Shown here: piece by piece, positions 16,141 through 32,871 of the stretch
How positions within the stretch are numbered: the stretch's first letter is position 1
How the letters are laid out: the number at the start of each line of letters is the position of its first letter
Origin: Gammaproteobacteria bacterium
GTDB taxonomy: Bacteria; Pseudomonadota; Gammaproteobacteria; Chromatiales; Chromatiaceae
Length of the DNA stretch: 33,102 nucleotides
Direction: 5' to 3'
Assembly: GCA_018812525.1 (NCBI GenBank)
Contig: JAHJDE010000136.1
Span: 1-33,102 of the forward strand
Notes under the pieces: model-generated
The model's database searches: none
The model's input: only the letters and a program-made list of their open reading frames with translations
What the model was told of the DNA's origin: nothing
Position numbers and translations under genes: made by a program

Positions 16141-16195
16141 ATCGTAGGGTTGGCGGCCATGAGATGCTGCCCGGCGTTGGCACGGAACGAAGAAT

Positions 16196-16388: not shown

Positions 16389-16407
16389 GACTTTCGGCAA
16401 ATAAACC

Positions 16408-17712: not shown

Positions 17713-17724
17713 TTGCGAACCCCT

Positions 17725-19410
17725 ATGCCTGATGCCGGAAACCATGCCGAACTAAATCTTGCCTGGGCCATTTGCCTTTTCGAGGGGCTGAGGGCGGGCG
17801 GCCTGAGGGAGGTGGTAATCTCCCCCGGCTCGCGCTCCACGCCGCTGGCCCTGGCCGCCTTCCGCCATCCCCATCTCCATGCGAAGGTCGTGCTGGACGA
17901 GAGGGCAGCGGCCTTTATGGCACTTGGGATGGCGCGGGCATCGGGCCGGCCCGTGGCCCTGGTCGCCACCTCCGGCACCGCAGTGACCGAGTGGCTGCCG
18001 GCCGTGACCGAGGCCGATCTGTCGCGGGTCCCCCTGTTGCTTTTATCCGCTGACCGTCCGCCGGAACTGCGCCAGTGCGGGGCCAATCAGACCATCGACC
18101 AGGCCGGACTGTTCGGCAGCCGGACCCGTTTCGCCATGGACCTGCCCTTGCCCGACCAAGGGCTGCTCCCCGCCGTTTCGGGTTTCGCCGCCAGGGCCAT
18201 GTGCGCCGCCCGCTGGCCCCTGCCGGGGCCGGCCCATCTCAATTGCCCCTTCCGGGAGCCCCTGGTCCCCGCCGCGAACGGGGTTTTCCCCTCGCGGTCC
18301 TCCCCAAGGGTCTCCCGCCCATGTTTATTGCCTGACCCGGACCATCTGCGCCAGATCGCGGAAGGAATCAACGGCCGCCCCGGCCTGATCCTTTGCGGCC
18401 CGGAACAGGGGGCCCCCTTACCGGCGAAGGAGATCGCCGCGCTGGCCGCGTCCCTGAACGTCCCCATCCTGGCGGACCCCCTCTCCAACCTGCGTTGCGG
18501 CCCCCACGAGAGGGGCAATCTCATCGCCCTCTACGATGCCTGCCTGCGGCGGCCGGCATTCCGCGCTGCCCTGAGACCGGAATGGGTGTTGCGCTTCGGA
18601 GGACCGCCGGTTTCCAAGCACCTGGAGCAGTTCCTGGCCGGACTCCCGGAGACACGCCATATCCAGACAGACCCCGCTGGCCGGTGGGCCGATCCCCTCC
18701 ATCTCACCGATGAGCTGATACTGGGCGACCCGGCCCTGGTGGCCGAGGGACTGGGGGTCCTTGCAGAACCCGTTGAGACCGGGTGGCTGGTTCTCTGGAA
18801 GGCGCGGGAGGAGGAGGTCAGGGCGATATTGGAGCGCCACTCCCCCGCCGAGGCTCGGATAGTCAGGGAACTGACCCGCCGTCTACCCGCCGGGAGCCTC
18901 CTGTTCAGCGGCAACTCCCTCCCCATCCGGCAACTGGACTGGTTCCTCGAAGGGCGTGATCAACCGCTCCGTATCCTCTGCAACCGGGGGGCCTCCGGCA
19001 TCGACGGCAATGTCGCCACCCTGCTGGGCATGGCCTCGGTTGCCGAGGGGCAGGTAGTCGGTCTTCTGGGTGATCTGACCCTGACCCACGACTTGGGCGC
19101 CCTGACGGAGTCGGTGGGCATCAGGGCATTGATCCTGGTATTGGGCAATGGCGGCGGGGCCATCTTCGACCACCTGCCGCAATCGGCCCTGGCGGAACAG
19201 GAGAGGCTTTTCCTCACCCCTCGCCCCCTCGATCTGGAGGCAGTGGCCAAGGCCTTCGGCCTGGGCTACCGAGCCACGGAGCCAGTGGGTTTGCCAGCGG
19301 CGCTGGAGACCATGCTGCCGCGGCCGGGCCTGGGCCTGCTGCACATCCGGCTTAATCGGGAGCTAAGCCTCTCTGAACACCGGGCACTCTGGGCCGAGCT
19401 GGCGAAATAA
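17725..19410 (+). CDS. menD: SEPHCHC synthase
   Basis: MenD is the thiamine-diphosphate enzyme that joins 2-oxoglutarate to isochorismate, giving SEPHCHC. The 561 residues show the family landmarks: ISPGSRSTPLALAAF, the cofactor-activating Glu region DERAAAFMALGMARA, LSADRPPELRQCGANQTIDQ, NRGASGIDGNVAT, the ThDP/Mg motif GDLTLTHDLG and NGGGAIFDHLPQ. It starts 12 bases after menF at ATG 17725. A TTG at 17713 directly after the menF stop is an alternative; neither has a strong ribosome binding site, so translation may be coupled to menF. A family B repeat follows the stop. Confidence 0.95.
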   Translation: MPDAGNHAELNLAWAICLFEGLRAGGLREVVISPGSRSTPLALAAFRHPHLHAKVVLDERAAAFMALGMARASGRPVALVATSGTAVTEWLPAVTEADLSRVPLLLLSADRPPELRQCGANQTIDQAGLFGSRTRFAMDLPLPDQGLLPAVSGFAARAMCAARWPLPGPAHLNCPFREPLVPAANGVFPSRSSPRVSRPCLLPDPDHLRQIAEGINGRPGLILCGPEQGAPLPAKEIAALAASLNVPILADPLSNLRCGPHERGNLIALYDACLRRPAFRAALRPEWVLRFGGPPVSKHLEQFLAGLPETRHIQTDPAGRWADPLHLTDELILGDPALVAEGLGVLAEPVETGWLVLWKAREEEVRAILERHSPAEARIVRELTRRLPAGSLLFSGNSLPIRQLDWFLEGRDQPLRILCNRGASGIDGNVATLLGMASVAEGQVVGLLGDLTLTHDLGALTESVGIRALILVLGNGGGAIFDHLPQSALAEQERLFLTPRPLDLEAVAKAFGLGYRATEPVGLPAALETMLPRPGLGLLHIRLNRELSLSEHRALWAELAK

Positions 19411-19428
19411 CCCGATGAACTTGCAAAA

Positions 19429-19524
19429 GCCCGTAGGATGCCGGTGAGCGGGAGCGAACCGCATCGTTCGTGCCGGCGTCGCCCGTGATCGGTGCGGTCC
19501 GTACCTCACCGCACCCTACGGCCC
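19429..19524. repeat. Dispersed repeat family B between menD and the FNR-like gene
   Basis: It starts GCCCGTAGGATGCCGGTGAG and ends CCTCACCGCACCCTACGGCC; these ends are imperfect inverted repeats about 20 bases long. It matches the two tandem copies at 13307-13402 and 13495-13587 nearly base for base. It sits between the convergent 3' ends of menD and the regulator gene and may serve as a two-way transcript end. Confidence 0.75.
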
Positions 19525-19531
19525 TGATGAA

Positions 19532-20284
19532 TTACCCCGCGTCCTGATCCAGCACCCCGAGAAGGGGTTCTATGCGTAGCAACCGGTAGGCACGGACGCT
19601 GGTCTGGATATAGCCGGCATCGTCCAGTTTTCGCAGGATCCGGCTGAGGGTCTCGGGGGTGATGGCCAGGTAGCTGGCCATGTCTTCCTTGGTCATTGGC
19701 AGGGGGATCTGCCCCTCTATGCCCCTGAGCCGGGTGCGGGAACGCTCGGCGAAATCCTGGAGAAACCCCAGGACACGCTGCTCGGTGCTGCGCTTGCGGA
19801 CATTGACCTGATGGACCGTATCGGAGCGCGCCCGCCGGTTCAGTACCTGGAACAGGCCACGCAGCAACTCCGGGTGCTTCATGCAGAGGGACTCCAGTTC
19901 CGCGGTGCGAAGCTCACAGATCCAGGCCGTTTCCAGGGCGATGGCATCGTCAGAATGGCTGTGCTCGCCCAGGGCCTCGGCCCCGAAGATGTCGCCGCGT
20001 AGATAGAATCCGGTGACCTGGAGGGCGCCGGCACAGGTGGTGTATTCGGTCTTCACCGACCCGGAGGTGATGGCGTAGAGGGCGGAGAGTGGGTCGCCGG
20101 TCCGGTAGATGCGGTCACCCGGCTGGTAGGGACCCCGGCAGCGGATGGTGCAGACGGCGTCCGGCAGTTGTTGCTCCTCGATGCCGGTTTTTCTCAGGAG
20201 GTGCCGGAGGTCACAATTGTGGCAGGCATGCTTCGCCTTGACGAGATGTAGCCCCTGGCGGGAACTGGAGCCTTTATGTTTCAC
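19532..20284 (-). CDS. Crp/Fnr family transcription regulator, FNR-like with reduced Cys set
   Basis: A 250-residue FNR-like regulator: an N-terminal Cys segment, a cyclic-nucleotide-like beta barrel (about 45-130), a dimer helix (135-165) and a winged helix (195-230). The recognition helix has the FNR pattern E211-xx-S214-R215 (PETLSRIL), which predicts TTGAT-N4-ATCAA sites. E. coli FNR holds its 4Fe-4S cluster with Cys20, 23, 29 and 122. Here Cys21 and Cys24 (HACHNCD) and Cys123 (ETAWICEL) align, but Leu30 occupies the Cys29 position; extra Cys45 and Cys49 follow. It could be an oxygen sensor with altered ligands or an NO-type regulator. The GTG start is 15 bases after the triheme cytochrome gene, so it is the last gene of the nos cluster. 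Confidence 0.9.
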   Translation of the reverse strand: MKHKGSSSRQGLHLVKAKHACHNCDLRHLLRKTGIEEQQLPDAVCTIRCRGPYQPGDRIYRTGDPLSALYAITSGSVKTEYTTCAGALQVTGFYLRGDIFGAEALGEHSHSDDAIALETAWICELRTAELESLCMKHPELLRGLFQVLNRRARSDTVHQVNVRKRSTEQRVLGFLQDFAERSRTRLRGIEGQIPLPMTKEDMASYLAITPETLSRILRKLDDAGYIQTSVRAYRLLRIEPLLGVLDQDAG

Positions 20285-20299
20285 GGAGCGGCCTTCTCG

Positions 20300-21163
20300 C
20301 TAGGGTGAAAGCTCTTCCCGGAGATCGGTGAGGGTTCGATGCACCCCATGGCAGCGGGAGCAGACATTGTAGCCCAGATGCCCCAGGAGCTTCCCCGTCT
20401 CCTCCTTGTCGCCCTTGGCCAGGGCGCTATCCAGCTCGGTCAGCTTCTCCTGGATCGACGAGCCGAGGATGCGTTCCTTGGGGTAGGCGTCCTGATGGCA
20501 TTGGTCGCAGGTCGCGCCCAAGTCGAGCAACTGCTGTTTGAGAACCGTGGCAGCCGTTTGGGCCGGTTCCCAGCGGCCGTCCTCGGCCCCGATCTTGACC
20601 CGGTTCACCTGGGTGGAAAGCCCTTCCATGGCCTTGCGGAACGGCTGCCCCTGGACTTGCAGGGGGCCGAAATCGGGACCCCGCATCAGTAGGGCCGTGA
20701 CGGCCTGATGATCCAGGTGGCAGGAGTCACAGCTCCGGCCCAGCTTGCCCAGGGCAGACTTCACCGCGGGAAGATCGCCGGCGGCGGCCGCCTGTTCGAG
20801 GCCGCCCAGGGCGTCGAGATCGGCCTCCACGCCCCACTCAGGGACCATCTCCGGTATCTGACGGTAGGACTGGGCGTACGCCGCCACCCACTTCTTCACA
20901 AGCTCGCCTTCCCTCGCCCCGGCGTATTCCTCGATGGCCTGTTGCGAACGACGCAGGTTGAACATGGTATGCAGCCAGACCTGCCGCTTGTTGGCCGGTT
21001 TGTACCACTGTTTGATGGATTCGGGCGGCGCCTCCAGGCCGGACGGTTCGGCGGTGGCCAGGAGCGGCAGGGCGGCGAGGATCAGTAGGAGCGAACTTGT
21101 TCGCGACCTTGCCGGGACCACGCGGGCGATGGGACGGGAGGATTCGATGGACAATTTTTTCAC
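20300..21163 (-). CDS. Periplasmic triheme cytochrome c, cytochrome c'-like repeats
   Basis: A 287-residue exported protein with three CxxCH heme sites: Cys145-His149 (CDSCH), Cys219-His223 (CDQCH) and Cys268-His272 (CSRCH). Each follows a helical stretch of the type LGxLGxxCxxCH, like the C-terminal heme helix of cytochrome c', so the protein may be built from helical-bundle units. The product begins MKKLSIESSR (GTG start at 21163) and has a hydrophobic segment SLLLILAALPLLATA with likely cleavage after Ala38. Start codon, basic region and part of the hydrophobic core are all encoded by a REP-like inverted repeat. It may be an extra electron carrier for N2O reduction, but this is inferred from location only. 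Confidence 0.85.
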   Translation of the reverse strand: MKKLSIESSRPIARVVPARSRTSSLLLILAALPLLATAEPSGLEAPPESIKQWYKPANKRQVWLHTMFNLRRSQQAIEEYAGAREGELVKKWVAAYAQSYRQIPEMVPEWGVEADLDALGGLEQAAAAGDLPAVKSALGKLGRSCDSCHLDHQAVTALLMRGPDFGPLQVQGQPFRKAMEGLSTQVNRVKIGAEDGRWEPAQTAATVLKQQLLDLGATCDQCHQDAYPKERILGSSIQEKLTELDSALAKGDKEETGKLLGHLGYNVCSRCHGVHRTLTDLREELSP

Positions 21164-21193
21164 AGGGACGGTCGCGAACAAGTTCGCTCCTAC
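21085..21193. repeat. REPIN-like element spanning a gene junction
   Basis: A 24-base perfect inverted repeat, starting GTAGGAGCG-AACTTGTT-CGCGA on each side, occupies 21085-21108 and 21170-21193 with a 61-base spacer. The right arm contains the TAG stop (21190-21192) of the upstream gene. The spacer holds the apparent GTG start (21163) of the triheme cytochrome gene, and the left arm encodes residues of its signal peptide. Two inverted REPs with a short spacer are the arrangement called a REPIN. Confidence 0.8.
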
Positions 21194-21717
21194 TTGAGGG
21201 TATAAAAACGGAAGGGGGCAACCCTGAGCCCCTCGGGGGTCTCCACCATCACCCGCGCCTCCCAATCCATCCGCTTGCGCACGCAGACGGGTATTCGGGT
21301 GCTGCCCGCGAAGGTCACTCCCGGTATCCTGCCTCCGGGGACACTAGCACCTTCCTGTGCGTCGTGTTGCCTGCCCACCGGTTTCAGCTCCGGCCGGTTG
21401 AAGCCCATGTTCATGCCGATGCCGGCGAAATCGACCATGACCTTGCGCGCCTGCAACCCCTCCAGGTCCACCTGGATCTGGATCGGCTCGATCAGGGGGA
21501 TATCCCTCGGCAAAATTCTGAACACCACGCCCTCGCCGCTGGGAAAGACCAAGCGGCAATCACCCGCCCGCAGGTCGCACGCCGGATCGGGTGAAAGGGA
21601 ATGGCTGACCTTGGGGAAGAGAATGGGCCAGGCGACATAGACCGCGCCGCCCGCCAGGGCCGCCAAGACCAGGACCAGCAAGGGGCCGAGCCAGCGGGTG
21701 GCGGACGGAAGGCTCAC
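21190..21717 (-). CDS. Membrane-anchored periplasmic protein of unknown function in the nos cluster
   Basis: A 175-residue protein with one N-terminal membrane segment (about 9-30, LGPLLVLVLAALAGGAVYVAW) and a periplasmic domain. Candidate metal ligands stand out: Cys47 and Cys54 (CDLRAGDC), a Met-rich GIGMNMGFNRPEL (Met102, Met104) and Cys145 in STRIPVCVRKRMDWEARVMVETP, ahead of a C-terminal beta strand APFRFYTL. Similar proteins occur beside copper-oxidase assembly genes in gammaproteobacteria as far as I recall, so a copper-handling role is plausible but not shown. Its ATG overlaps the nosY stop by four bases (ATGA), so it is co-translated with nosY. Its stop codon lies in a REPIN-like repeat. 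Confidence 0.82.
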   Translation of the reverse strand: MSLPSATRWLGPLLVLVLAALAGGAVYVAWPILFPKVSHSLSPDPACDLRAGDCRLVFPSGEGVVFRILPRDIPLIEPIQIQVDLEGLQARKVMVDFAGIGMNMGFNRPELKPVGRQHDAQEGASVPGGRIPGVTFAGSTRIPVCVRKRMDWEARVMVETPEGLRVAPFRFYTLK

Positions 21718-22541
21718 GGCAGATCACCCCTTCGGAACCATTGATAACCGATCCATGCCGTCAGGGTCCCCAGCAACAGGGGGTAGGCCAAGGCATAGAC
21801 CATGAAGCCCAGGTTGCCGAAGTTGTCCAGGATCACATAGGCAGCAGGCCCCAACAGCACCAGTTGGGGGTCGAACAGCATCATGCCGGCCGTGCGGAAG
21901 ACCTGCAAGGGATTGGCCAGGGCGATGCCGATGACCAGGTCCGCTGGGGCGTACTGCTGCACCATCACCCCCAGCAGGATGAGATCGAGGAACAGCAAAA
22001 GCCCGAGCCAGATAACGAAGGCGGTACCCTGGGCCACATCGACGCTGCGCGCCACCGAGGAGACCAGCATGCCGATGCCGAGGAAACACCAGGTGAGGAC
22101 CATCAGCAGGGCGCTGTAGTAGAGAAAGATCCGCCAGGGCAGCTCGACCCCGGTCAGCCCGCCCCAGAGCATGGCCCCGCACATGGCCAGGAGGACCGGG
22201 GTATAGACCATGATGAAGCGCCCGAGCATCTTGCCCCAGTACCAGGCCGAGAGGGCGACCGGCAGGGAGAGGAGATATTCGAAGACACCGCTTTCCCGGT
22301 CGCCGGAGAGGGAGCGCACCGTGGTCACCAGCACAAACACGGGCAGGATGGCCATGCTGAGCTGGAGATAGGTTAGCATCAGCCGCGACAGGCCCGTGAA
22401 GCCCATGACGCGGGATTCGGTCAGACCCAGGGCGAAGAGCAACACCAGGATGCCGCCGAAGACAAAGGTATAGACCGCGAACCAGCGCGCCCGCAGGGAT
22501 TCCAGGATATCCGTCCAGGCCGTCAAAAGAAGGTGATTCAT
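21714..22541 (-). CDS. nosY: ABC transporter permease NosY
   Basis: NosY is the membrane subunit that works with NosF and NosD to build the Cu(Z) sulfide-bridged copper site of NosZ. The 275-residue protein has six or so transmembrane segments and the ABC-2-type permease signature around SGDRESGVFEYLLSLPVALSAWYWGKMLGRF. The N-terminus (LESLRARWFAVYTFVFGG) and the GIGMLVSSVARSVDVAQGTAF loop fit NosY. AGGA lies just before the ATG at 22541. It is separated from nosL by a family A repeat and overlaps the next gene by four bases. Confidence 0.93.
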   Translation of the reverse strand: MNHLLLTAWTDILESLRARWFAVYTFVFGGILVLLFALGLTESRVMGFTGLSRLMLTYLQLSMAILPVFVLVTTVRSLSGDRESGVFEYLLSLPVALSAWYWGKMLGRFIMVYTPVLLAMCGAMLWGGLTGVELPWRIFLYYSALLMVLTWCFLGIGMLVSSVARSVDVAQGTAFVIWLGLLLFLDLILLGVMVQQYAPADLVIGIALANPLQVFRTAGMMLFDPQLVLLGPAAYVILDNFGNLGFMVYALAYPLLLGTLTAWIGYQWFRRGDLP

Positions 22542-22557
22542 CCTGGGAATCCTCCCT

Positions 22558-22679
22558 TCTCGCGCAAAGACGCCAAGAAAACAAGTGGCCCCATGGCCAT
22601 CCCGGCATTACCCGCCCCATGAAGCGCGGAAGCTGTATATCCCATTGCTTCCTTAGCGCCTTTGCGCCTTTGCGCGAGA
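22558..22679. repeat. Dispersed repeat family A between nosL and nosY
   Basis: The ends TCTCGCGCAAAGACGCCAAG and CTTTGCGCCTTTGCGCGAGA are inverted repeats differing at two of about 20 positions. The 80 bases between them carry no gene. The element fills nearly the whole 157-base gap inside the nos operon. Confidence 0.7.
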
Positions 22680-22698
22680 TATATGGAGGATTTTGGTC

Positions 22699-23274
22699 TC
22701 ATTGCTGATTGGTCTCCCGGATACTGGGTAGTTTGGCCTGTTCGGCGTTCTGTTCCAGGTGGGCGCCGTGGGTATTGAACCTCTCCTCTTGCTGGTAGAT
22801 CAGCTCCCGCGCCTGCTCGAAATCGATGGCGCCGGTGATGGGATCGTCCTGGGCGCCCAGTCCATACTCCATGGGCGTCAGCTTACCCTGGACGTAAGAG
22901 GCCGTGCGGGCGTCGATCCATTCGCCATTGCGGTGGTCGTTCACCCAGATCTCCACGCTGGGATGCTCACGCCATTCCTGCTGATCCAGCCAGATGACGG
23001 CACAACCAATATCATCGAATTTAAAGACCTGGCTGCGTGACTCTGGGTCCGGGGTGTAGCGTATCTGGGCCGAGAAGTTCCTTGCGCTCAGCACCATGCG
23101 GCAGCGCTCACAGGCGTCCCGATCCCAATGCACATCGGCCGGTCCCGTCCCCGGCTCACCGGAGCATGCGGTAAGTAGAAAGAGCAGCGGCAGGATGAAT
23201 AGGTGGGCCTTCAGACCGACAAGCAGCCCTGAAGGGCTGCCCGCAGGGGTTAAACATCGCCTTGATTCAGTCAT
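22699..23274 (-). CDS. nosL: Copper-binding lipoprotein NosL
   Basis: NosL is an outer-membrane or periplasmic lipoprotein that delivers Cu(I) for assembly of the NosZ metal centres. The 191-residue protein has a lipoprotein signal ending LLFLLTAC-SGE (lipidated Cys37) and the NosL copper motif Cys55-x2-Cys58-x-Met60 in DACERCRMVLSARNFSAQI. DDIGCAVIWL and WVNDHRNGEWIDARTASYV are further family stretches. The gene overlaps nosF by eight bases. The N-terminus before the hydrophobic core is long (about 23 residues), so a later start is possible. Confidence 0.94.
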   Translation of the reverse strand: MTESRRCLTPAGSPSGLLVGLKAHLFILPLLFLLTACSGEPGTGPADVHWDRDACERCRMVLSARNFSAQIRYTPDPESRSQVFKFDDIGCAVIWLDQQEWREHPSVEIWVNDHRNGEWIDARTASYVQGKLTPMEYGLGAQDDPITGAIDFEQARELIYQQEERFNTHGAHLEQNAEQAKLPSIRETNQQ

Positions 23275-24154
23275 TGACCACCCCCCTTTCGCTCACGCGG
23301 CCGGCGTCGCTCATTTCAAGGCCGGCCAGCAGACCGGCGTAGCGGGACAGCACACCGAGGAACCGCAGGCGGTCGGGGCCGGCCAGGGTCCCTTCCCATT
23401 GCAGACCGCCGGCACCTGCAATAAAGCCCCATTGGCCGATGGCGCGGGCGAAGGCGGCCTCCTGGCGATTAATGCGGATGCGGCAGGCGAGCCGGCTGTC
23501 CAAGTCCACAAGGTCATCCACCTTGTCGTCAAGCACCACCCGCCCCTGGTCCAACTCGATCACCCGGTTGACCAGGGTCGCCACCTCGTCCAGGCGGTGG
23601 CTGGAGATGAGCATGACCGCTTCCTTGTCCCGTTTCTCCGCCAGCAATTCGAAAAAGACGCCGCGCGCCTCCGGATCCAGATTGGCCGCAGGCTCGTCCA
23701 TGATGAGCAGGCGCGTATCCCGGCCCAGGGCAGCGGCTATCAGGAGTTTCTGCTTTTGGCCGCCGGAGAGCCGGACAAAGGGCTGGTGGCGGTTCTGGTC
23801 AATGTTCAGGCCCAGGCGTTGGGCCACCGCGACGATCCGCCCCGGATCGCTATCGGCCACATCGGCGACGAAACGCACCAACTGCCCCACCGGCATCTTC
23901 AGCGGCGGCGGCAGTTGCGGCACGAAACCCACCAGGCGCAGGACCTCGCAGCGCTGCTGGCGCGGACATTTGCCGTCCACGCGAATCTCGCCGCCGAACC
24001 GGTATTCGCCCAGCAGACAGCGGATCAAAGTGGTCTTGCCGGCCCCGTTGGAGCCGATCAGGGCCACCCGACGGCCCGGCTCCAGCTTCAGGTCGAGCCC
24101 CTGGATCACCTCGCGCTTGCCGAAGCCCTTGCGTAGCCCTTGGATACTGATCAT
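23267..24154 (-). CDS. nosF: ABC transporter ATP-binding protein NosF
   Basis: NosF is the cytoplasmic ATPase of the NosDFY complex that supports Cu(Z) maturation. The 295-residue protein carries all ABC motifs: Walker A GSNGAGKTT (34-42), Q-loop FVPQLP, signature LSGGQKQ (129-135), Walker B LLIMDEP (149-155) and the switch His in ISSHRLDEV. The roughly 90-residue C-terminal part after the ATPase is not a known catalytic domain. The ATG at 24154 is preceded by AGGA. It is the first gene of the nosF-nosL pair, with a family C element upstream separating it from nosH. Confidence 0.94.
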   Translation of the reverse strand: MISIQGLRKGFGKREVIQGLDLKLEPGRRVALIGSNGAGKTTLIRCLLGEYRFGGEIRVDGKCPRQQRCEVLRLVGFVPQLPPPLKMPVGQLVRFVADVADSDPGRIVAVAQRLGLNIDQNRHQPFVRLSGGQKQKLLIAAALGRDTRLLIMDEPAANLDPEARGVFFELLAEKRDKEAVMLISSHRLDEVATLVNRVIELDQGRVVLDDKVDDLVDLDSRLACRIRINRQEAAFARAIGQWGFIAGAGGLQWEGTLAGPDRLRFLGVLSRYAGLLAGLEMSDAGRVSERGVVND

Positions 24155-24216
24155 CGCGGTTCCTAAATCTCTACGTGGACGGATTCTATCTGACTGTGCC
24201 CCTGGACGATGAAAAT

Positions 24217-24408: not shown

Positions 24409-24435
24409 TATTTTTCATGGTAACCAGCCGGGATC

Positions 24436-25413
24436 TTATTGCAGTTTCTTGAGACCCAGTACCTCGTAGGTCAACGAGCTGGTGGGGCAGGCATCCACGC
24501 AGAGGCCGCAGCGGGTGCAGTCGGCCCCCACCGGGACATCCACATCGGCGGCGCGGCCCTTGATGGTCATGTCCAGGACATGGGGGACCAGGCAGACCTT
24601 GCGGCAATTACCCTCGTGGTGACAATCCTTCAGGTTGTATTTGACCCGCACCGGGGAGATGCTGCCCACCAACCCATAGGTCAAGCCGATCGGGCAGACA
24701 TAGCGGCACCAGGCGCGACGCGACACGAATACCTCGAACAACAGCAGCAGCAACACCCAGAGCAGGGCCAGACCGGGGCCGTAGATCATCGCCCGGCTGA
24801 GGATGCCGGTGGGAGAGAGGGTCTCGAACACCGTATAGCCCGTGACCAAGGCCAGCAGGGCGAAGAGGACATAGAAGATCGTGCGCGCCCCCCGATGGAA
24901 GGTCACCGGCCTGATCCACTTCTTCGCCTCCAGCCACAGGTGCAGGGTCTCGGTCCACTCCGCCAGCAGGTGGTAGGGACAGACCCAGGAGCAGAAAGTT
25001 CGCCCGCCCACCAGTATCCAGAGAATGAAGACAGTGACGGTACCGATCAGCAGGTTCAGCACCACGTGTTTGAAGGCCAGCATCACCTGCAAGGCGGAGT
25101 TGAGATCGGCCATGTGGAAGCCGATGAAGCGCGAAGCGGTCAGCGCCCCCTCCAGCAACTGCACATCGAAGTAGTAGGAGACCACGAACAGCAGGTTGAC
25201 CAGGATCAGGGTCATCCAGCGCCGCTTGCGCCAGAGATGGCGCCGTTCGTGCAGGGCATGGGCCTCCTCGATGGCCATCAGCTCCGCCTTGGTCTCCTTG
25301 CGGCCCTTTTTGACGACATGGATCTCCCGCGCCTCCGGCGAATAGTCCTCCGGCGCGGGCTTGCCCGGATTGGCCCCGAGCATCTGCTTGATGGAAGCGG
25401 CAAAGTAGCTCAT
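24436..25413 (-). CDS. nosH: NosH-type membrane iron-sulfur protein (NapH-like quinol oxidase subunit)
   Basis: A 325-residue NapH/NosH-type inner-membrane protein thought to oxidise quinol and pass electrons through NosG and cytochromes to NosZ. After a charged cytoplasmic N-terminus come about four transmembrane segments (66-85, 108-135, 178-197, 213-230). Two CxxxCP motifs, Cys141/145 (CSWVCP) and Cys236/240 (CRYVCP), are family hallmarks. The C-terminus holds ferredoxin-type cysteines: Cys264, 270, 274 and Cys299-x2-302-x2-305-x3-309 (CTRCGLCVDACP). It follows nosG after a 157-base repeat. NapH proper is excluded only by context, since nap genes are absent. Confidence 0.9.
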   Translation of the reverse strand: MSYFAASIKQMLGANPGKPAPEDYSPEAREIHVVKKGRKETKAELMAIEEAHALHERRHLWRKRRWMTLILVNLLFVVSYYFDVQLLEGALTASRFIGFHMADLNSALQVMLAFKHVVLNLLIGTVTVFILWILVGGRTFCSWVCPYHLLAEWTETLHLWLEAKKWIRPVTFHRGARTIFYVLFALLALVTGYTVFETLSPTGILSRAMIYGPGLALLWVLLLLLFEVFVSRRAWCRYVCPIGLTYGLVGSISPVRVKYNLKDCHHEGNCRKVCLVPHVLDMTIKGRAADVDVPVGADCTRCGLCVDACPTSSLTYEVLGLKKLQ

Positions 25414-25570: not shown

Positions 25571-26422
25571 CTAGCCTCGTTTCCGCTGGGTATCGGCGGT
25601 CTCGTCGAGGACGATGACGATGGCGGGCGGATCGGTGGGGCAGACCATCTCACAGACGCCGCAGCCCACGCAGCCGTCATGGACCAGCGGCTTCCTGGCT
25701 TTACCCTCACCCATCGATTCCAGGGAGATGGCCCGACTCGGGGGGCACTGGTTCTTGTCGCCCGAGGGCGGCTTGCCCGCCGCGCACTGGCCGATGCGGA
25801 TCTCGATGGGGCACTGGCGCACACAGAGGTCGCAGAGTTCCAGATCATAGGGGTGGTCGGCGATGGGGACGGCCTTCCAGCGGTCCAGCTCCTCGTAACG
25901 CAGAACCCCCTTGAAATCGGGTCCGCGCGCCTGGCCCTTGAAGCCCTGGCCCTGGATGGCGAGGCACTTCTCCGGCCGCGTCAGCCGGGCGAAACCCATG
26001 CGGGACTGGGCGGGGTAATTGATCTCGTGGGTCAGGGCGCCGGTCGGACAGGCCAGGACGCATTGCAGGCCGTCGCAGGAGAAGTCGCAGGCCTGGTCGC
26101 GGGCCTCGATGAAGGGGGTGCCAATACCGAAGCCGTCGGCCAGATCAGTCAGCTTGATGGCCTCGACCGGACAGACCTGCACGCACTGGCCGCATTTGAT
26201 GCAGGCGGCGAGGAAGTCGCGTTCGTTGAGGTCCTTGTCGATCAGCGCGCCCGGCGGACGCAGCCGCTTCATCTTGCCTTCGCCCACCGGGATATAGCCC
26301 ATAAGGCTGATGAGCAGTACGCCGCCGGCCATCGCGCCGGTGCGCAGGAACTCACGTCGGCTCTGCTCGCGGCGTTTCGGTGATATGGGCGGTTTGTTTT
26401 TTGGTCTCTTTTCGGTGGTCAT
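25571..26422 (-). CDS. nosG: NosG-type periplasmic ferredoxin (NapG-like)
   Basis: A 283-residue iron-sulfur protein of the NapG/NosG type, which partners NosH in quinol oxidation. The twin-arginine signal is visible (SRREFLRTGAMAGGVLLISL, Arg22-Arg23). Four cysteine clusters follow: Cys74-77-80-84 (CIKCGQCVQVCP), Cys112-116-121-125, Cys197-200-204 (CDLCVRQCP) with a fourth Cys elsewhere, and Cys251-254-257-261 (CVGCGVCEMVCP). This predicts four 4Fe-4S clusters exported folded by Tat. Its ATG overlaps the nosD stop by four bases (ATGA), so nosD and nosG are translationally coupled. Confidence 0.92.
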   Translation of the reverse strand: MTTEKRPKNKPPISPKRREQSRREFLRTGAMAGGVLLISLMGYIPVGEGKMKRLRPPGALIDKDLNERDFLAACIKCGQCVQVCPVEAIKLTDLADGFGIGTPFIEARDQACDFSCDGLQCVLACPTGALTHEINYPAQSRMGFARLTRPEKCLAIQGQGFKGQARGPDFKGVLRYEELDRWKAVPIADHPYDLELCDLCVRQCPIEIRIGQCAAGKPPSGDKNQCPPSRAISLESMGEGKARKPLVHDGCVGCGVCEMVCPTDPPAIVIVLDETADTQRKRG

Positions 26423-27768
26423 GGTCTGCCCAGCGATTGTTTAAGCGCCTTCAAGGCATCGAAGCCCTGCTTTTCCCCCGTGGCAACGTCCCCGTCCTGT
26501 TCGCCCCAACCGGCGGCAAGGGACTGTCGCAGGAGCTCCTCGGCGCTGGCGGCCAGCATCAGCGGCCGTTCGTCCCGCAACATCAGGTTCGGCGGGGAGA
26601 AGGGGGCCAGGCGCTCCAGGAAGTCGATCACCTCCAACATGGGACTCCCCTTGAAGAAACGGGCGTCATTCACATCCATCCAGAGCCGGTCTGCATAACC
26701 GAACTGTTCATAGGGGCGATCACCGATGCCGTCCTTATCACGATCGAAGCCCTGGTATTCGTCCCAGTGATTGCCGCGCCAGATGTTCCGCTTGGCGCTC
26801 TTGCCGCCGTTGACCGCTACCTGGGTCAGATTTCCCTTGAAGAGATTGCCCTCGAAGATATTGCCTGTCCAGTCGTTGAGGAAACGTACCCCGACGGCAT
26901 TGTAGGCGATCAGGTTGTGACGGATGAGATTGGTGGTATCCGGTTGAAAGGGGGAGACATCCAGGTCGAGTCCCGTGGCGCAGTAGAGGATCTCGTTGTT
27001 GTCGATCTCGACGCTGCTGGTTTCCTTGAAGCCGATGCCGACCCCAGTGGGGCCAGTGGCCCTGAATACACGATTGCCGCGCACCTTGATGCCATCGCTG
27101 TACATGATGAAGATACCGACCGAGTTGTCGCGGAAGTCGTTGTTCTCCACCAGGTTGTACTGGGAGTACATGAAGTGCAGCGAATAGCGCCCCCCCGTGG
27201 ACTTGTTGCCACGGATGAGGTTGTCGCGGGAGTACCAGACCACGATATCGCGGGAGTTGGTCGCGACGTTCTCCTCGATCTTGTTGTTGAAGCTGTACCA
27301 GAGGCGGATGGCGTCGCCGCGTACCCCCAGCTCCACATCCTTGGAGGAGATCCGGTTGCGCCGGACCAGGTTGTTCTTGGACTGCTGCAAATCGATGCCG
27401 AAGAGGCAGTTGTCGATGCGATTGTCCTTGATGACGTTGAAGTCGCCCCGCACCTGGATGCCCGAATCCAGATCGTTGTGGGAGTTGCCGGAGTTGGTGA
27501 GGCGGAGGTTCTTCACTGTGGCGCTGTCAGTGTCCAGCAGGATCACGGTCCCCTTGCCGCCGCCATCGATGGTCACCTGGTTCTGGCCATCCAGCACCAG
27601 GGGCTTGTCGATGACCACCGGCCCGGCATAGACGCCGGGCGGCGGTGTCAGGGTGCTGTTGGGTTCGGCTGCATCCACCAGCTTTTGCAGGGAAGGCAGG
27701 GCCTGCGCCTGCGCCGTCCCCCAGAGACAGAACAGCAGCGGCAGCAGAAGCGGCGGGCGCAGGCTCAA
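26419..27768 (-). CDS. nosD: Copper-site maturation protein NosD
   Basis: NosD is the periplasmic beta-helix protein of the NosDFY machine needed for Cu(Z) formation. The 449-residue product has a short signal peptide (LSLRPPLLLPLLFCLWGTAQA) and many parallel beta-helix repeats of the PbH1/CASH type, seen as N-x-[IV]-x2-N-x-[IF] units such as NVIKDNRIDNCLFGIDLQQS and NNLVRRNRISSKDVELGV. FMYSQYNLVENNDFRDNSVGIFIMYS is a strongly conserved stretch. The TTG at 27768 is chosen because it starts the signal peptide, with GGAG and AAGGG just upstream at the nosB stop. The frame stays open far upstream into nosB, but that part reads as out-of-frame nosB. It overlaps nosG by four bases. Confidence 0.92.
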   Translation of the reverse strand: MSLRPPLLLPLLFCLWGTAQAQALPSLQKLVDAAEPNSTLTPPPGVYAGPVVIDKPLVLDGQNQVTIDGGGKGTVILLDTDSATVKNLRLTNSGNSHNDLDSGIQVRGDFNVIKDNRIDNCLFGIDLQQSKNNLVRRNRISSKDVELGVRGDAIRLWYSFNNKIEENVATNSRDIVVWYSRDNLIRGNKSTGGRYSLHFMYSQYNLVENNDFRDNSVGIFIMYSDGIKVRGNRVFRATGPTGVGIGFKETSSVEIDNNEILYCATGLDLDVSPFQPDTTNLIRHNLIAYNAVGVRFLNDWTGNIFEGNLFKGNLTQVAVNGGKSAKRNIWRGNHWDEYQGFDRDKDGIGDRPYEQFGYADRLWMDVNDARFFKGSPMLEVIDFLERLAPFSPPNLMLRDERPLMLAASAEELLRQSLAAGWGEQDGDVATGEKQGFDALKALKQSLGRP

Positions 27769-27773
27769 GACCC

Positions 27774-28949
27774 TTACTCCGCCTGTCCCCGACGCAGCTC
27801 CTTGCGGCGCAGGATACCGAGGGTGGCGGTTACCAGCGACAACAGCAGGATCAGGCCGAAGCCCCAATAGGGATAGGAGTGGGTGGCGAACTGGGCCACC
27901 TTGCCCTGGCCGAAGACCGTGGGCATAAAGGGCTTGACGGTGAAGGCCCCCATGGCATTCATGCTGTGGCCGTACCACCAGAGCCAGGCCGCGTATTCGA
28001 TGATGAAAAAGACCGGCAGGGCAGCCGGCACGATGATCAACAGCCAGTAGAACAGGCCACCGGTCTTGCCCGCCCCATAGATCAACAACAGCATGGCGCC
28101 GATGATGCCGAAGAAGACGACCTTAAAGGCCAGCCCCATCCCCGCCACCATGGGATCGATCTCGGCCCGGTTGTTGAAATAACGGCCCAGACTCTTGTCG
28201 TAGTGCCACAACATCACTTGGTTGTTGCTGCCATTCCAGGCCATGGCATTGTCGCCCTTGCGCTCCTGATCCTTGTCGAAGGTGATGCGCAGGCTCTGGA
28301 TCAGGTTTGCCTTGGACTGGGATGATTCGCCTCCTGCCGCCTTGGTCCCGGCAGCCTGTCCCTCGGACTTGGCCAGTTCCGCCCTGAGCCGTTCAACGAT
28401 GCCGCCGCCGATCTCGATCTCCTGGTCCTTCTCGCCCGCCGCCTGATCCATGGAGGTTATCAGGGCCTCCACATAGCCCTGGCTCTGGTACTTGAGACCG
28501 TCCTTCCCGAAGAAGGTCAGGGACATCCAGGCAATGATGGCGCCGAAGCCCAGGGTGAGCAGGATCTGCCGCAGGCGAGTGTGGCGGCAGGCGAAGCCCA
28601 GCACCATCACTCCCAGCATGGAGACCAGGAAGGGCGACAGGGCGCGCTCGACTACACCGCCGGCGGCGATGGGGTACATGCCCACGTAGTGGTTGATCGT
28701 GTCCATCTCGTGGACACAATCGAGGGCCTCGTCCTCGCGGATTTCCGCCTTTTCCACCTTTTTGCAGCCGTTGAACACGCCATTGAAGTGGAAGTGGATG
28801 CGCACACCGTCGGGGAATGCCTCCGGCGGGTAATTGGGCGCAGTGAGCGATACCCACCAGATGGGGGCGTAGTAGATGACCGCCAACAAGGCCACGGCGA
28901 TCAGGGCAAAGCCCATGGGAAGCAGGCTGTTAGGCCGGACTTGATTCAT
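27774..28949 (-). CDS. nosB: Membrane protein NosB of the clade II nos cluster
   Basis: A 391-residue inner-membrane protein matching the NosB type that marks atypical (clade II) N2O reductase clusters; its exact role is unsettled. About six transmembrane segments lie near 12-33, 105-120, 126-146, 258-282, 288-312 and 362-384, with a long polar loop (about 150-250). The conserved N-terminal periplasmic part reads PIWWVSLTAPNYPPEAFPDG and HFHFNGVFNGC, then a second Cys in ALDCVHEMDTINHYVGMYPI. The two Cys and several His could bind metal or heme. Five bases separate its stop from the nosD start. It is assigned from position and motifs, with fair confidence. Confidence 0.85.
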   Translation of the reverse strand: MNQVRPNSLLPMGFALIAVALLAVIYYAPIWWVSLTAPNYPPEAFPDGVRIHFHFNGVFNGCKKVEKAEIREDEALDCVHEMDTINHYVGMYPIAAGGVVERALSPFLVSMLGVMVLGFACRHTRLRQILLTLGFGAIIAWMSLTFFGKDGLKYQSQGYVEALITSMDQAAGEKDQEIEIGGGIVERLRAELAKSEGQAAGTKAAGGESSQSKANLIQSLRITFDKDQERKGDNAMAWNGSNNQVMLWHYDKSLGRYFNNRAEIDPMVAGMGLAFKVVFFGIIGAMLLLIYGAGKTGGLFYWLLIIVPAALPVFFIIEYAAWLWWYGHSMNAMGAFTVKPFMPTVFGQGKVAQFATHSYPYWGFGLILLLSLVTATLGILRRKELRRGQAE

Positions 28950-29198: not shown

Positions 29199-29945
29199 TC
29201 AATAGTCCGGGTTCTTGTAGTCCTTGGAGGGGGCCAGGTCCTTCTGGGGGACCGGAATCCAACTGCCGTAGTTGATGACGTGCTTCATGTCGTCATCGGT
29301 GAAATTCTTGATCTGCTTGACCATGTCCGGGTTGGCGTTGCGGCGCTTGCCGTCGCGGACCCACTGAAACTGGCGCAGGATGTATTCATAGTGCTGACCC
29401 ACGATCTTGGGGAAGAACTTGTCATCGTCGCCTTCGCCCTGTTCGCCATGGCACTTCACGCAGTTGTCGGCGTAGAGCTTCTTGCCCTTTTCGAATTCAG
29501 GGGTACCAGGACCCCAGGGGCCCTTGCCGTGATCGGGATTCATGGGCAGCTTGGCGATATAGGCGGTTACGTCGGCCACCAGTTGCGCCGGAGGGATGTC
29601 GCCGTGCTTGTAGCCCGCCGCCGACATGATCTGATCGTCCAGGGCGAAGGGGTACATGGTGGGGTTGTCGCGGTTCTTGGCGCGGATGTCGGCCAACTGT
29701 TTGATCAGGACGTTGCGGTGCTGGCCCGCCAATTGGGGAAAGGTGCCGTCCTTCAGACCCCAGCCTTCCAACAGGTGACAGGCTGAACAGACTTCATAGA
29801 CAGCGATGCCGCGGTCGCGGTCCGGTTTCAGCAGCATGGCCTCGTCCTTCTCGCCGCCGCCTTCGTTCCAGGCAGCCATAGCGGGCGCGGAGAGGGCGAG
29901 GGCCATGGCGGCGATCAGTGCGTTCTTGCGAATTGGGAATTTCAT
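29199..29945 (-). CDS. Periplasmic diheme cytochrome c (c4-like)
   Basis: A 248-residue exported cytochrome with two heme sites, Cys53-x2-Cys56-His57 (CSACH) and Cys162-x2-Cys165-His166 (CVKCH), in two similar domains (LAGQHRNVLIKQLADIR and IVGQHYEYILRQFQWVRDG), the pattern of cytochrome c4. The signal peptide MKFPIRKNALIAAMALALSA ends near PAMA-AW. Clade II nos clusters usually encode such cytochromes as donors to CuA of NosZ, which is the likely role here. The ATG at 29945 is preferred over an earlier in-frame ATG because it starts the signal peptide. A perfect FNR box lies about 90 bases upstream, suggesting a second promoter inside the nos cluster. Confidence 0.92.
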   Translation of the reverse strand: MKFPIRKNALIAAMALALSAPAMAAWNEGGGEKDEAMLLKPDRDRGIAVYEVCSACHLLEGWGLKDGTFPQLAGQHRNVLIKQLADIRAKNRDNPTMYPFALDDQIMSAAGYKHGDIPPAQLVADVTAYIAKLPMNPDHGKGPWGPGTPEFEKGKKLYADNCVKCHGEQGEGDDDKFFPKIVGQHYEYILRQFQWVRDGKRRNANPDMVKQIKNFTDDDMKHVINYGSWIPVPQKDLAPSKDYKNPDY

Positions 29946-30035
29946 CGTAGCTATCTCGCATTCATTGAATAGGGTTCGGCCCATCCCTCGATGGACCTCT
30001 GGTTTGCAGGCTATCGCCCAGGGAGGGGTCGAACC

Positions 30036-30049
30036 TTGATTAGAATCAA
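30036..30049. promoter_or_regulatory. FNR-type box upstream of the diheme cytochrome gene
   Basis: TTGAT-TAGA-ATCAA is an exact match to the FNR/ANR/DNR consensus TTGAT-N4-ATCAA. Its centre is about 97 bases upstream of the ATG at 29945, in the gap after the monoheme cytochrome gene. The -10 element expected about 31 bases downstream is weak (GATAGC at 30015-30010). This suggests anaerobic or NO-linked control of the second part of the nos cluster. Confidence 0.75.
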
Positions 30050-30063: not shown

Positions 30064-30381
30064 TTACTGGGTGGCCAGCCAGTCGGCGATGGCCGCCATC
30101 TCTTCGTCGGAGACAAGGCCCATGACGCCCTTCATGGCGGCAGACTGGCCGTTGGCGCGGGCACCGCTCTTGATGTCCTTCATCTGTTGCAGGGCGTAAC
30201 CGGCATTCTGACCCGCCAGTTTGGGATAGACAGGCAGGATGGGGGTCTTGGCGTCCTTGCCGTGGCAGGACCAGCAGGTCTTGGACTGGAACAGGGCAGA
30301 GCCGTCCAGGGCCATGGCGTTGCCGGACAGGGCCAGGGGGAGAATCAGCGCAGCCGCGATGCTCAGGGATTTAAATTTCAT
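30064..30381 (-). CDS. Small periplasmic monoheme cytochrome c
   Basis: A 105-residue class I cytochrome c with signal peptide (MKFKSLSIAAALILPLALSG, cleavage after AMA) and one heme site, Cys36-x2-Cys39-His40 (CWSCH). The sixth ligand is probably a Met in AAMKGVMGLV (Met83 or Met87), and YPKLAGQNAGYALQQM is typical of the c5/c552-like group. As the gene directly after nosZ it probably donates electrons to NosZ or to its partner diheme cytochrome. The ATG at 30381 has GAGGT seven bases upstream, better than an ATG 21 bases earlier. A strong hairpin separates it from nosZ. Confidence 0.92.
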   Translation of the reverse strand: MKFKSLSIAAALILPLALSGNAMALDGSALFQSKTCWSCHGKDAKTPILPVYPKLAGQNAGYALQQMKDIKSGARANGQSAAMKGVMGLVSDEEMAAIADWLATQ

Positions 30382-30425
30382 GGGATTACCTCGAATTTTC
30401 AATGGGTTTTGGTTCCGCTACGGAA

Positions 30426-30479: not shown

Positions 30480-32789
30480 CTATTTTTTGACCTCGACAGC
30501 CCCGTTCTGATCCAGATGGGTCTTGGCGCGCAGGCCCAGGTCGGCGGTCTTGACCTGGTACTGCCACCACTGGTTGGCCCAGAGCATGGCGTTCTGCCAG
30601 TCCTGCTTGGCAGCGGCCTCTTCGGCCTTCTTCTTGGCCTCGGCGCCAAAGCCAAGCTGTTCGACGGCATCTTCCACCAGGGCGCCAACGATCGGGAAGT
30701 CCTTGAAGTTACGCGCGGTGATGTAGGTCACCACCGAGTCGATGACGGCCTGGGTATCGACGTTGGTCTTTACCTGCTTGTCGTAGTCGGCCTGGGTGTA
30801 GGCAACGCCTTCCTGCATGGCGACCGCTTCGGCCTTGTAGCCCTTCGGCTGCACCAGCAGATAGCCCTGCATCTCCAGGTGGAGCGCGGAGCAGAACTCG
30901 GTGCAGTAGTAGGGGTAGACGCCCGCCTTTTCGGCCACGAAGGTGGTGGAGGCGGTCTTGCCCGGCTCGACGGAGAGCTGGACGTTCTGCCCGTACATGG
31001 CGAAGCCGTGTACCTCGTCCTGGGCGCGTTCCATGTTGGTCAGGTGGATCTTGACCGTATCCCCTTCCTGGGCCTCGATGATCTCGGGCGTGATGTGGGA
31101 ACGGATCAGGGTGCCATAGACCTCGGTGGTGCACTTGCCGCTGGCGTCGCAGGTACGTTCGGTCTTCTCGCGGCCGGCGCGGGTGGCGTAGGGCGACTTT
31201 TCGTCGTTACGCGAGTTCCAGCCGGTCTTGTAACGGACCTCCGGTTGCAGCTTGTCGGCCTTGATGGCTACCACATAGTGGGGTTCGCCCAGGGGCAGCG
31301 GCATGTCGTACAGCAGTTCCATCTTGTCGCCGCTGATGTCGATCAACTGGTGGTTCTGCGGATGCAGGGGGCCCACGGGATTGAAGCGGTCGATGGAGAG
31401 CTTGTTGAGAGAGATCAAGTACTTGCCGTCCGGCGACCTGGAGTCGCCTTCCATGGATACCAGATGACCAATGTTGTAGTGGATGTTGATTTGATCCAGT
31501 ACCTTGCCTTGGCAGTAGTCCCACTTGGTGACCATGGAGTCCACGTAGATGGAGGTATAGGCCACGCAGGGCTTGGAGTCATACTGGGTGTGCAGCGGAC
31601 CCAGGCCGACCTGGACCTGCTTGTCCAATGCGTCTTTCATGGCAATGATCGGAATGCCGTAGGGGTCCTTGCCCTCGAACTTCTTGTCCGCGATGGCCTT
31701 CATGATCTTCTCGAAGCTGTAGACCCAGGTATGGCTATCCAGCTTGCCGGAGACGATGATGTGGGTACCGTCCGGGCTCACGTCCACGCCATGGGGGGAC
31801 TTGGGCTCAGGGATCAGATAGAGCAGCCCTTCCTGAACGGCCTGCTCCATGGTGATCAGGTACATGCCCTTCTCTTTCTTCACCTTGCCGGCCTTGACCA
31901 GCTCCTCGGCCTTCTTCCAGTTGGTCACGTGGAGGAAGTCGGTGTCCTTGGAGGAGCAGCCTGCCTCGAAGGGGGGGCGACCGCGCTCGATACCGCCCAC
32001 GTAGCGCTCGGAGCAGAAGGAGTTGGTGAAGCCCCAGCCGTCGGAGGGACCCTTACCGGCGTCGGAGAGGTCCTGGGAGTAGGGCGGCAGCTCGAAGTTG
32101 AAGGAGTTCTCCATCTCCAAACGTCCTTTCTCCTTGTTGAACTTCCAGTAGGTCAGACCGCCGCGGTACTTGTCGTTGAATTGCTCCAGGGGGACATGGT
32201 CGTCACTGTAGGGGGCCGCGTACTGGCTGGCCTCCATCACGTACTCGGTGTTGGGGGTAACGAAGGCGCCGCCGTGGTCCGACTTGAAGAAGGGGTTGAC
32301 CACGATCTGCTTGGTCTCGAAGTCGTGCAGATCGATGACCGCCACGCGGGGATTGGCCTTGTCGTTGATGAAGAGATAGCGGCCGTTATACTCGCCATCG
32401 GTTTCAGAGAAGGCGGGGTGATGGGTGTCGCCGTAGGTGATGTCCTTGCCGTTGATCTTTCCCTGGGCCAGCACGGCCTTGGATTCGTCGTCAAAGCCAT
32501 AGCCCTGCCAGGGCTCGGGGGTGAAGACGCCGATGTACTTGAGGATGCGCATGGAGGGGATGCCGTAGACGATCACTTGGCCGCTTTGCCCGCCGGAGCT
32601 GAATGCCAGATATTCGTCACGGCCCCCGGTGGGGGTATAGGTCTTGGCTGCCGCCAGGACATCTTTCTCGGTCAGGCCACGGGCCTTCATGACCGCGTCG
32701 AGCTGTCCCTGGGCAAAGGCGCTGGTCGCCATGCCGGCGCTCAGCGCCGTGCCCACGAGAAGCGAGGTTATTCGCTTGGTTTTTTTCAT
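30480..32789 (-). CDS. nosZ: Nitrous oxide reductase NosZ, clade II (Sec-exported)
   Basis: NosZ reduces N2O to N2 in the periplasm. The 769-residue precursor has a Sec-type signal (MKKTKRITSLLVGTALSAGM, cleavage near AFA-QG) with no twin-arginine motif, the mark of clade II. The seven-bladed propeller holds the CuZ histidines: DTHHPAF (123, 124), SDHGG (172), SPHGVDVSPDG, GPLHTQYDS, IGHLVSMEGDSR and LGEPHYV. The cupredoxin domain has the CuA motif CTEFCSALHLEM (Cys629, Cys633, His637, Met640). About 119 residues follow the CuA domain, helical, Lys/Ala/Trp-rich and without a heme motif. GGGAG lies 8 bases before the ATG, and an FNR box lies upstream. It is the first gene of the cluster. Confidence 0.97.
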   Translation of the reverse strand: MKKTKRITSLLVGTALSAGMATSAFAQGQLDAVMKARGLTEKDVLAAAKTYTPTGGRDEYLAFSSGGQSGQVIVYGIPSMRILKYIGVFTPEPWQGYGFDDESKAVLAQGKINGKDITYGDTHHPAFSETDGEYNGRYLFINDKANPRVAVIDLHDFETKQIVVNPFFKSDHGGAFVTPNTEYVMEASQYAAPYSDDHVPLEQFNDKYRGGLTYWKFNKEKGRLEMENSFNFELPPYSQDLSDAGKGPSDGWGFTNSFCSERYVGGIERGRPPFEAGCSSKDTDFLHVTNWKKAEELVKAGKVKKEKGMYLITMEQAVQEGLLYLIPEPKSPHGVDVSPDGTHIIVSGKLDSHTWVYSFEKIMKAIADKKFEGKDPYGIPIIAMKDALDKQVQVGLGPLHTQYDSKPCVAYTSIYVDSMVTKWDYCQGKVLDQINIHYNIGHLVSMEGDSRSPDGKYLISLNKLSIDRFNPVGPLHPQNHQLIDISGDKMELLYDMPLPLGEPHYVVAIKADKLQPEVRYKTGWNSRNDEKSPYATRAGREKTERTCDASGKCTTEVYGTLIRSHITPEIIEAQEGDTVKIHLTNMERAQDEVHGFAMYGQNVQLSVEPGKTASTTFVAEKAGVYPYYCTEFCSALHLEMQGYLLVQPKGYKAEAVAMQEGVAYTQADYDKQVKTNVDTQAVIDSVVTYITARNFKDFPIVGALVEDAVEQLGFGAEAKKKAEEAAAKQDWQNAMLWANQWWQYQVKTADLGLRAKTHLDQNGAVEVKK

Positions 32790-32830: not shown

Positions 32831-32871
32831 AGTCTAGGTGCGGCACTTCACCCAGCCTTGATATTAGTCAA
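32831..32871 (-). promoter_or_regulatory. FNR-type promoter of nosZ
   Basis: On the minus strand TTGAC-TAAT-ATCAA (32871-32858) matches the FNR consensus at all but one base. TAGACT (32836-32831) lies with its centre 31 bases further on, exactly where a -10 box should be if the FNR site is centred at -41.5. Transcription would start near 32823 and leave a leader of about 35 bases before the ATG at 32789. This is the layout of a class II FNR-activated promoter. Confidence 0.75.

Follow-up and report, generated by a model that had tools for sequence, protein, structure and literature searches.

A conserved membrane-anchored protein behind nosY is a candidate copper-handling factor for nitrous oxide reductase

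Nitrous oxide (N2O) reductase, NosZ, depends on copper. Here, we analyze a stretch of 33,102 nucleotides from the genome of a member of the Chromatiaceae related to sulfur bacteria (Gammaproteobacteria bacterium, assembly GCA_018812525.1, contig JAHJDE010000136.1, positions 1 to 33,102 of the forward strand; hereafter the window) that carries a nos operon with three further genes behind nosY. We report that the first of these genes, p175, belongs to a conserved family that keeps company with the genes for SCO1 and PCu(A)C, and its product therefore probably helps to load copper into NosZ, as far as gene neighborhoods and conserved residues can tell. The explanation that we favor, with some confidence, is that p175 acts alongside SCO1 and PCu(A)C in handling copper for NosZ, and that the other two genes, which encode a three-heme cytochrome and an FNR-like regulator, are additions. 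The genes in question, with the three open reading frames of the tail all on the minus strand, are:

21714..22541, minus strand: nosY (ABC-2 permease), the stop of which overlaps p175 by four bases
21190..21717, minus strand: p175 (175 residues, GTG start), with an N-terminal transmembrane helix and a beta-sandwich
20300..21181, minus strand: three-heme c-type cytochrome with a signal peptide (CDSCH, CDQCH, and CSRCH)
19532..20284, minus strand: FNR-like regulator

An initial annotation of the sequence had described three genes after nosY, the first overlapping it by four bases, and this arrangement is real: the order nosY-p175-cytochrome-fnr recurs in the genome of a sister species (G209) at 79-96% identity. 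The cytochrome gene begins 8, 26, or 68 bp behind p175, depending on which of three possible starts is used (TTG at 21181, GTG at 21163, or GTG at 21121), and the regulator gene begins 15 bp beyond the end of the cytochrome gene.

No Pfam or NCBIfam model matches p175, nor does PHROGs, and its 39 aligned relatives give only single chance matches; none of these members matched the Pfam families NosL, FixH, YtkA, CopC, SCO1, or PCuAC at E ≤ 0.1. The candidate copper ligands pointed out in the initial annotation, namely two cysteines, a GMNMG motif, and a third cysteine, are present as C47 and C54 (spaced C-X6-C), residues 101-105, and C145, and they stand up to comparison: C47 and C54 are invariant in 39/39 sequences (24-88% identity to the window protein), while M102, M104, G105, and C145 are kept in at least 90% of the same set. 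A structural model built from 64 sequences (predicted local distance difference test score, pLDDT, 85; predicted template-modeling score, pTM, 0.77) consists of a membrane helix (residues 5-33) and a beta-sandwich domain, which we infer to lie on the periplasmic side of the inner membrane. From the order of strands in the model, the MNMG loop and the C145 loop would sit at the same end of the sandwich.

A structural aligner used for a second look put Helicobacter pylori CrdA with silver in its top row (Z 10.9, 2.3 Å over 98 residues), followed by apo CrdA (Z 10.7) and by an engineered protein and a DUF4785 protein (both Z 10.5), with copper-bound FetP and P19 also among the rows. CrdA binds copper, and a Met-rich loop has been proposed for it (PMC9182242; this and the other papers given here by PMC number are cited from excerpts). 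p175 is predicted to form a beta-sandwich as in CrdA and CopC, but it differs from these copper-binding proteins by its membrane anchor, its cysteines, and its GMNMG motif, and it has no MXXMPGM motif. The window copy also carries one peculiarity:

21316..21366, minus strand: 51-nt in-frame insertion adding 17 residues (118-134) to a loop of p175

Neither the sister species nor any of the other 20 sequences in the alignment concerned (A1) has this insertion, and within it the modeled segment 118-127 has a pLDDT under 50.

Relatives of p175 occur in 180 of the 210 genomes of an order-level sample that includes the window's own genome (G000), in 56 of 274 genomes drawn from the class, and, for the phylum draw, in 40 of 398, every one a member of that same class; only part of the matches from these draws, for p175 as for the cytochrome below, was turned into loci. 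Among named relatives, we kept the best 80 of 162 (17 of these 80 lie outside alignment A3). They are mostly Chromatiales, such as Sedimenticola, Candidatus Thiodiazotropha, and Thiocapsa, and the nearest of those kept is Gammaproteobacteria bacterium RIFOXYD12_FULL_61_37. Co-occurrence with nos genes, as envisaged in the initial annotation, holds for about half of these loci: nosY lies directly upstream of p175 in 39/80, of which 24 are without SCO1, 3 have SCO1, and 12 have SCO1 together with PCu(A)C. A further 16 of the 80 have SCO1 without nosY (12 of them with PCu(A)C), so that SCO1 stands beside p175 in 31 named loci, 24 of which are near PCu(A)C too. In Sedimenticola selenatireducens, for example, the order is nosL-nosY-p175-SCO1-PCu(A)C (L096, L125), and at another locus (L008) the neighbors of the p175 relative were confirmed by Pfam as SCO1-SenC (E 1.2e-40) and PCuAC (E 1e-43). 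The same company is kept on a Pseudoalteromonas plasmid, where a "hypothetical protein" related to p175 (26% identity, 78% query coverage, E 2e-4) is followed by a "SCO family protein" and then a "copper chaperone PCu(A)C."

The wider draws, on class and phylum, contributed 58 loci, viewed with flanks of up to 1.5 kb. Here nosY was found in 5, SCO1 in 30, PCu(A)C in 23, and none of the three in 25; where tblastn did not find the p175 strand, the strand with more neighbors was taken, so these counts lean toward linkage. Within the order, linkage was tallied against nosB, the name that we take to apply to the membrane protein gene at 27774..28949 of what is presumably a clade II nos operon. p175 lies within 12 kb of nosB in at least 45 of the 99 genomes with nosB, a lower bound because the tally took 150 listed p175 places from 138 of the 180 genomes, and broken contigs lower the figure further. 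A tree of 81 p175 proteins requires 9 changes of the nos label, against a mean of 27.4 after shuffling, and well-supported branches force at least 4, although it is built from few columns and many of its forks are weak; the linkage between p175 and nos was therefore gained or lost several times. Among the relatives with none of the three neighbors, L222, L228, and L234 each adjoin, in back-to-back orientation, a gene that we read as ccoN, which Pfam identifies as COX1 in L228, and this suggests a role for p175 in the cbb3 oxidase of those genomes; other unlinked relatives sit between unrelated genes.

Published work offers a setting for such a protein. Loading of the CuA site of NosZ is described as less well worked out than that of CuZ, and in Paracoccus denitrificans, N2O is reduced less well at low copper when pcuC, senC2, or Pden_4445 (whose function is unknown) is deleted; more copper rescues the mutants in senC2 and Pden_4445 but not that in pcuC (PMC7558416). 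For Bacillus azotoformans, the occurrence of a senC/SCO1 paralogue close to a nos cluster has been published before (PMC3475470). The SCO1/SenC-PCu(A)C relay genes adjoin many p175 relatives, whereas p175 itself has no SCO1 or PCuAC Pfam match. The closest description that we found is of Cj0908 and Cj0910 of Campylobacter jejuni, two unexplained membrane-anchored proteins (PMC8267372) that share with p175 a single N-terminal transmembrane helix, a domain that is periplasmic (in p175, presumably so), and C-X6-C, Cj0910 having a further cysteine as p175 does. Their operon, cj0908-0911, holds PCuAC and Sco, and a mutant lacking all of it has less cbb3 oxidase activity (PMC8267372). Both of these partners are near p175 in 24/80 named relatives, whereas the pair in the window's genome is on another contig. 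Cj0908 and Cj0910 were studied for the cbb3 oxidase and not for NosZ, and the likeness drawn here is one of description; we regard the shared signature as a strong lead, short of proof of homology. In the open-licence literature searched, which was available in part, we found no printed precedent for p175 in nos operons, and the excerpts of two papers on nos clusters (PMC11102522 and PMC11409646) hold nothing on a p175 gene.

In the explanation that we favor, p175 would sit in the periplasm, anchored in the inner membrane, and would work on copper alongside SCO1 and PCu(A)C; as the last old gene of a clade II nos operon, it would help to metallate NosZ. In keeping with this, the window's genome shows one p175, in nos, and one SCO1-PCu(A)C pair, on another contig (C175) without p175. 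M102/M104 and C145, perhaps with C47/C54, would bind or pass Cu(I); alternatively, the C-X6-C pair may hold copper, or the site to be loaded, in the reduced state. CuA, by the SCO1/PCu(A)C route, would be a likelier target than CuZ, by the NosL route. The three tail genes would share expression without forming a complex.

The three-heme cytochrome has a different history. The three hemes of the initial annotation are borne out by three CXXCH motifs, while the likeness to cytochrome c' that it also claimed is confined to a short stretch: PF01322 (cytochrome c') matches 18/18 members of the family, the window protein with E 9e-12, but there only over profile positions 86-119 of 121. Cytochrome c' has one heme, near its C-terminus, as opposed to three in the window protein. 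Relatives at E < 1e-40 are present in 80/210 genomes of the order (103/210 at E ≤ 0.001). nosB is present in 66 of these 80 genomes, without a match in the other 14, and conversely 66 of the 99 nosB genomes have the cytochrome; it lies within 12 kb of nosB in only 4/80, namely the window's genome, its sister G209, G202 (some 3 kb upstream of nosZ), and G091 (between nosZ and nir-like genes). The cytochrome is therefore tied to nosB genomes and not to the nos locus, and a nos-specific cytochrome was rejected on the count of 4/80; a special coupling to nos is not supported. Homologues lying mostly away from nos genes, or in genomes without them, which the initial annotation named as refuting its idea, are what is seen for the cytochrome (76 of the 80 genomes do not have it within that distance, and 14 are without a nosB match) and, in part, for p175.

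Its usual neighborhood appears to be that of nir and nor. At 20 cytochrome loci chosen by hand for their spread over genera, nir or nor genes are found at 14, and at several of them the cytochrome is flanked by SNase-nirS and, opposite, by norCB; one is the G202 locus near nosZ, and five show none of these genes, three of the five being on pieces shorter than 10 kb. The nirS and norCB clusters of the window's genome are on other contigs, the stretches fetched around them hold no such cytochrome, and a search of the whole genome returned the nos copy only. Given this nir/nor home and the single copy in nos, the likeliest reading is that a denitrification cytochrome has moved. It would serve as an electron carrier of denitrification or as a nitric oxide (NO)-binding protein that this genus houses in the nos operon. 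A model of the cytochrome (pLDDT 58, from two sequences) was judged too poor for a structure search, a plasmid search gave no match at E ≤ 1e-5, and a literature search combining the three-heme cytochrome with nir/nor returned no "triheme" among the matches listed. At two loci (L156 and L157), a NosD-like beta-helix gene lies between nirS and the three-heme cytochrome; NosH/NapH-like matches apart, no other nos gene was seen nearby.

Between p175 and the cytochrome gene, the window carries a further element:

21086..21192: repetitive extragenic palindromic (REP)-like inverted repeat, arms 21086-21106 and 21172-21192

The arms occur 13 times genome-wide with up to 2 mismatches (0 in a reversed control). 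The repeat is missing at the same place in the sister species and extends into the cytochrome signal peptide. Its left arm supplies TAGGAG and TTG, a possible ribosome site and start codon, and the stretch SRTSSLL of the signal peptide comes from its right arm; the sister protein begins VKTKYL there. Judged from this comparison, insertion of the repeat has rewritten the start of the cytochrome gene.

The third gene, called a regulator in the initial annotation, is indeed FNR-like, though one usual cluster cysteine is missing. FNR proteins are [4Fe-4S] oxygen sensors with four cluster cysteines, and E-x-x-S-R is the motif of their recognition helix. The closest solved relatives of the window protein are FNR structures (E 3.4e-29 over residues 20-221). 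It shares with FNR/ANR the CxxC, C123, and an ETLSR in the helix-turn-helix that fits the recognition motif, but whereas C21, C24, and C123 match cluster ligands, Leu30 occupies the third position and there is an extra conserved cysteine, C49. C21, C24, C49, and C123 are common to all four aligned FNR-like sequences. The window protein forms a subgroup with those of L205 and L206 that has Leu at the third cluster position, and the conserved C49 could stand in for the missing cysteine. Relatives at E ≤ 1e-60 occur in 4/210 genomes, those of its own genus and two of another genus, and the loci of the latter two have no nos gene within their 1.5-kb flanks. Across the window, 19 FNR-type sites with up to 2 mismatches were found against 6.9 expected. 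Two of them precede nos operon genes:

32858..32871: FNR-type site TTGATATTAGTCAA, 1 mismatch, centered about 75 bp before the nosZ start
30036..30049: FNR-type site TTGATTAGAATCAA, the only exact one, centered about 58 bp before the gene for a 261-residue cytochrome

The FNR-like protein would be a local regulator that may act on these two sites. A second Crp/FNR-type regulator, perhaps NO-responsive, is found beside norCB in the same genome (L202:6933-7658).

With a cytochrome whose home is nir/nor and a rare fnr, the tail is apparently one old copper-linked gene plus two genus-level additions. This leaves no support for the joint role of all three genes put forward in the initial annotation, given the few genomes with the cytochrome near nosB and the few with close fnr relatives; copper delivery survives from it for p175 only, by context (nosY, SCO1, and PCu(A)C) and by residues.

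Several observations weigh against this explanation. As many as 25/80 named p175 loci have no nosY, SCO1, or PCu(A)C neighbor, 60 of the 138 tallied p175 genomes are, by subtraction, without a nosB match, and relatives beside ccoN-like or unrelated genes mean that the family is not nos-specific. In the window's own genome, the nos operon does not include SCO1-PCu(A)C. The window and sister p175 proteins share a long branch (1.82) and the window copy has its 17-residue insertion, so the function of p175 could have drifted here. Proteins of unrelated function score nearly as well against the model (Z 10.5) as CrdA does (10.9), a PDB sequence search with the p175 profile gave chance matches only (two sliding clamps at E 0.3), and of 696 rows from a Foldseek search against the PDB none reached E ≤ 0.001. 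Because CrdA heads the aligner rows yet Foldseek returns no such match, the predicted fold agrees with copper handling but is short of proof. The C. jejuni authors did not delete cj0908 and cj0910 singly (PMC8267372). As for the regulator, it is without one usual ligand, the 19 FNR-type sites are spread over the whole window with several inside genes, and four further sites with 1 mismatch lie elsewhere in the window.

Other explanations draw on the same observations. p175 might be a membrane-anchored thiol redox protein that carries no copper, its C-X6-C pair serving to reduce either Cu(II) or the target's CuA cysteines ahead of delivery by SCO1/PCu(A)C. The invariance of the pair in all 39 sequences speaks for this, as does the reductase role that the C. 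jejuni authors propose for Cj0908/Cj0910, with the same cysteine spacing (PMC8267372). A pure thiol redox protein would, however, hardly need the nearly fixed M-x-M and third cysteine, and the modeled beta-sandwich is not a thioredoxin-like fold; we consider this reading unlikely. The single N-terminal helix and small domain, an overlap with nosY that suggests translational coupling, and the relatives adjoining genes read as ccoN (one of them COX1) would suit an assembly or docking subunit, in a role like that of CcoH/FixH, which would handle no metal itself but keep the NosDFY or SCO1 machinery in place at the membrane. Against such a subunit stand cysteines and methionines that are fixed or nearly so across 39 distant sequences, and the absence of FixH, YtkA, or CopC matches among them, and we rate it quite improbable.

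We give equally little credence to the whole tail being a dedicated nos module, in which the cytochrome and p175 would feed electrons and copper to NosZ under the linked FNR. Gene order kept in the sister species, tight spacing, FNR-type sites before nos genes, and nosB in most cytochrome genomes are all in line with a module, but the cytochrome is rarely near nosB and commonly has nir/nor neighbors, and close fnr relatives are confined to four genomes.

The remainder of the operon reads, on the minus strand, nosZ, two cytochrome c genes, nosB, nosD, nosG, nosH, nosF, nosL, and nosY, followed by the tail:

30480..32789, minus strand: nosZ (nos_propeller domain; N-terminal sequence resembling a Sec signal, with no twin Arg)
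30064..30402, minus strand: 112-residue cytochrome c
29199..29984, minus strand: 261-residue cytochrome c with two CXXCH
27774..28949, minus strand: membrane protein, presumably nosB-like
26419..27978, minus strand: nosD, the listed start being probably too far upstream
25571..26422, minus strand: nosG (NapG-type)
24436..25413, minus strand: nosH (NapH-type)
23267..24154, minus strand: nosF
22699..23274, minus strand: nosL

The clade II nos cluster of the Wolinella type comprises nosZ, nosB, cytochromes c, nosD, nosG, nosH, nosF, nosL, and nosY. The window has the same set of nosZ, NosB, NosG, NosH, and nosDFYL, but adds p175, the three-heme cytochrome, and fnr after nosY. Pfam and NCBIfam scans gave no significant match for the nosB-like protein, and an Rfam scan of 19000-33102 gave none. 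The interval 19350-22000 holds no sigma-70-like promoter, nor, on the fnr strand, any terminator-like site after fnr. The operon is adjoined by menaquinone genes at 12185-19410 (menC, menA, menB, isochorismate synthase, and menD), the last two of which are convergent with it; this neighborhood fits a menaquinol-fed NosGH route. An FNR-type site with 1 mismatch lies at 16127-16140, before the isochorismate synthase gene.

p175 is thus a conserved gene that links nosY of clade II operons with the genes for SCO1/PCu(A)C, and a candidate NosZ maturation factor. A broader idea, which we put forward tentatively, is that it represents a third, nameless component of the SCO1/PCu(A)C relay in Gammaproteobacteria and probably in Campylobacter, with a nos link gained or lost several times and, where that link exists, a copper or redox handover dedicated to NosZ. 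p175 could also connect the two unexplained proteins of C. jejuni with a general pathway. Reduction by NosZ has been described as the sole biological sink for N2O (PMC11237620); since NosZ destroys this greenhouse gas, how the enzyme is loaded with copper matters.

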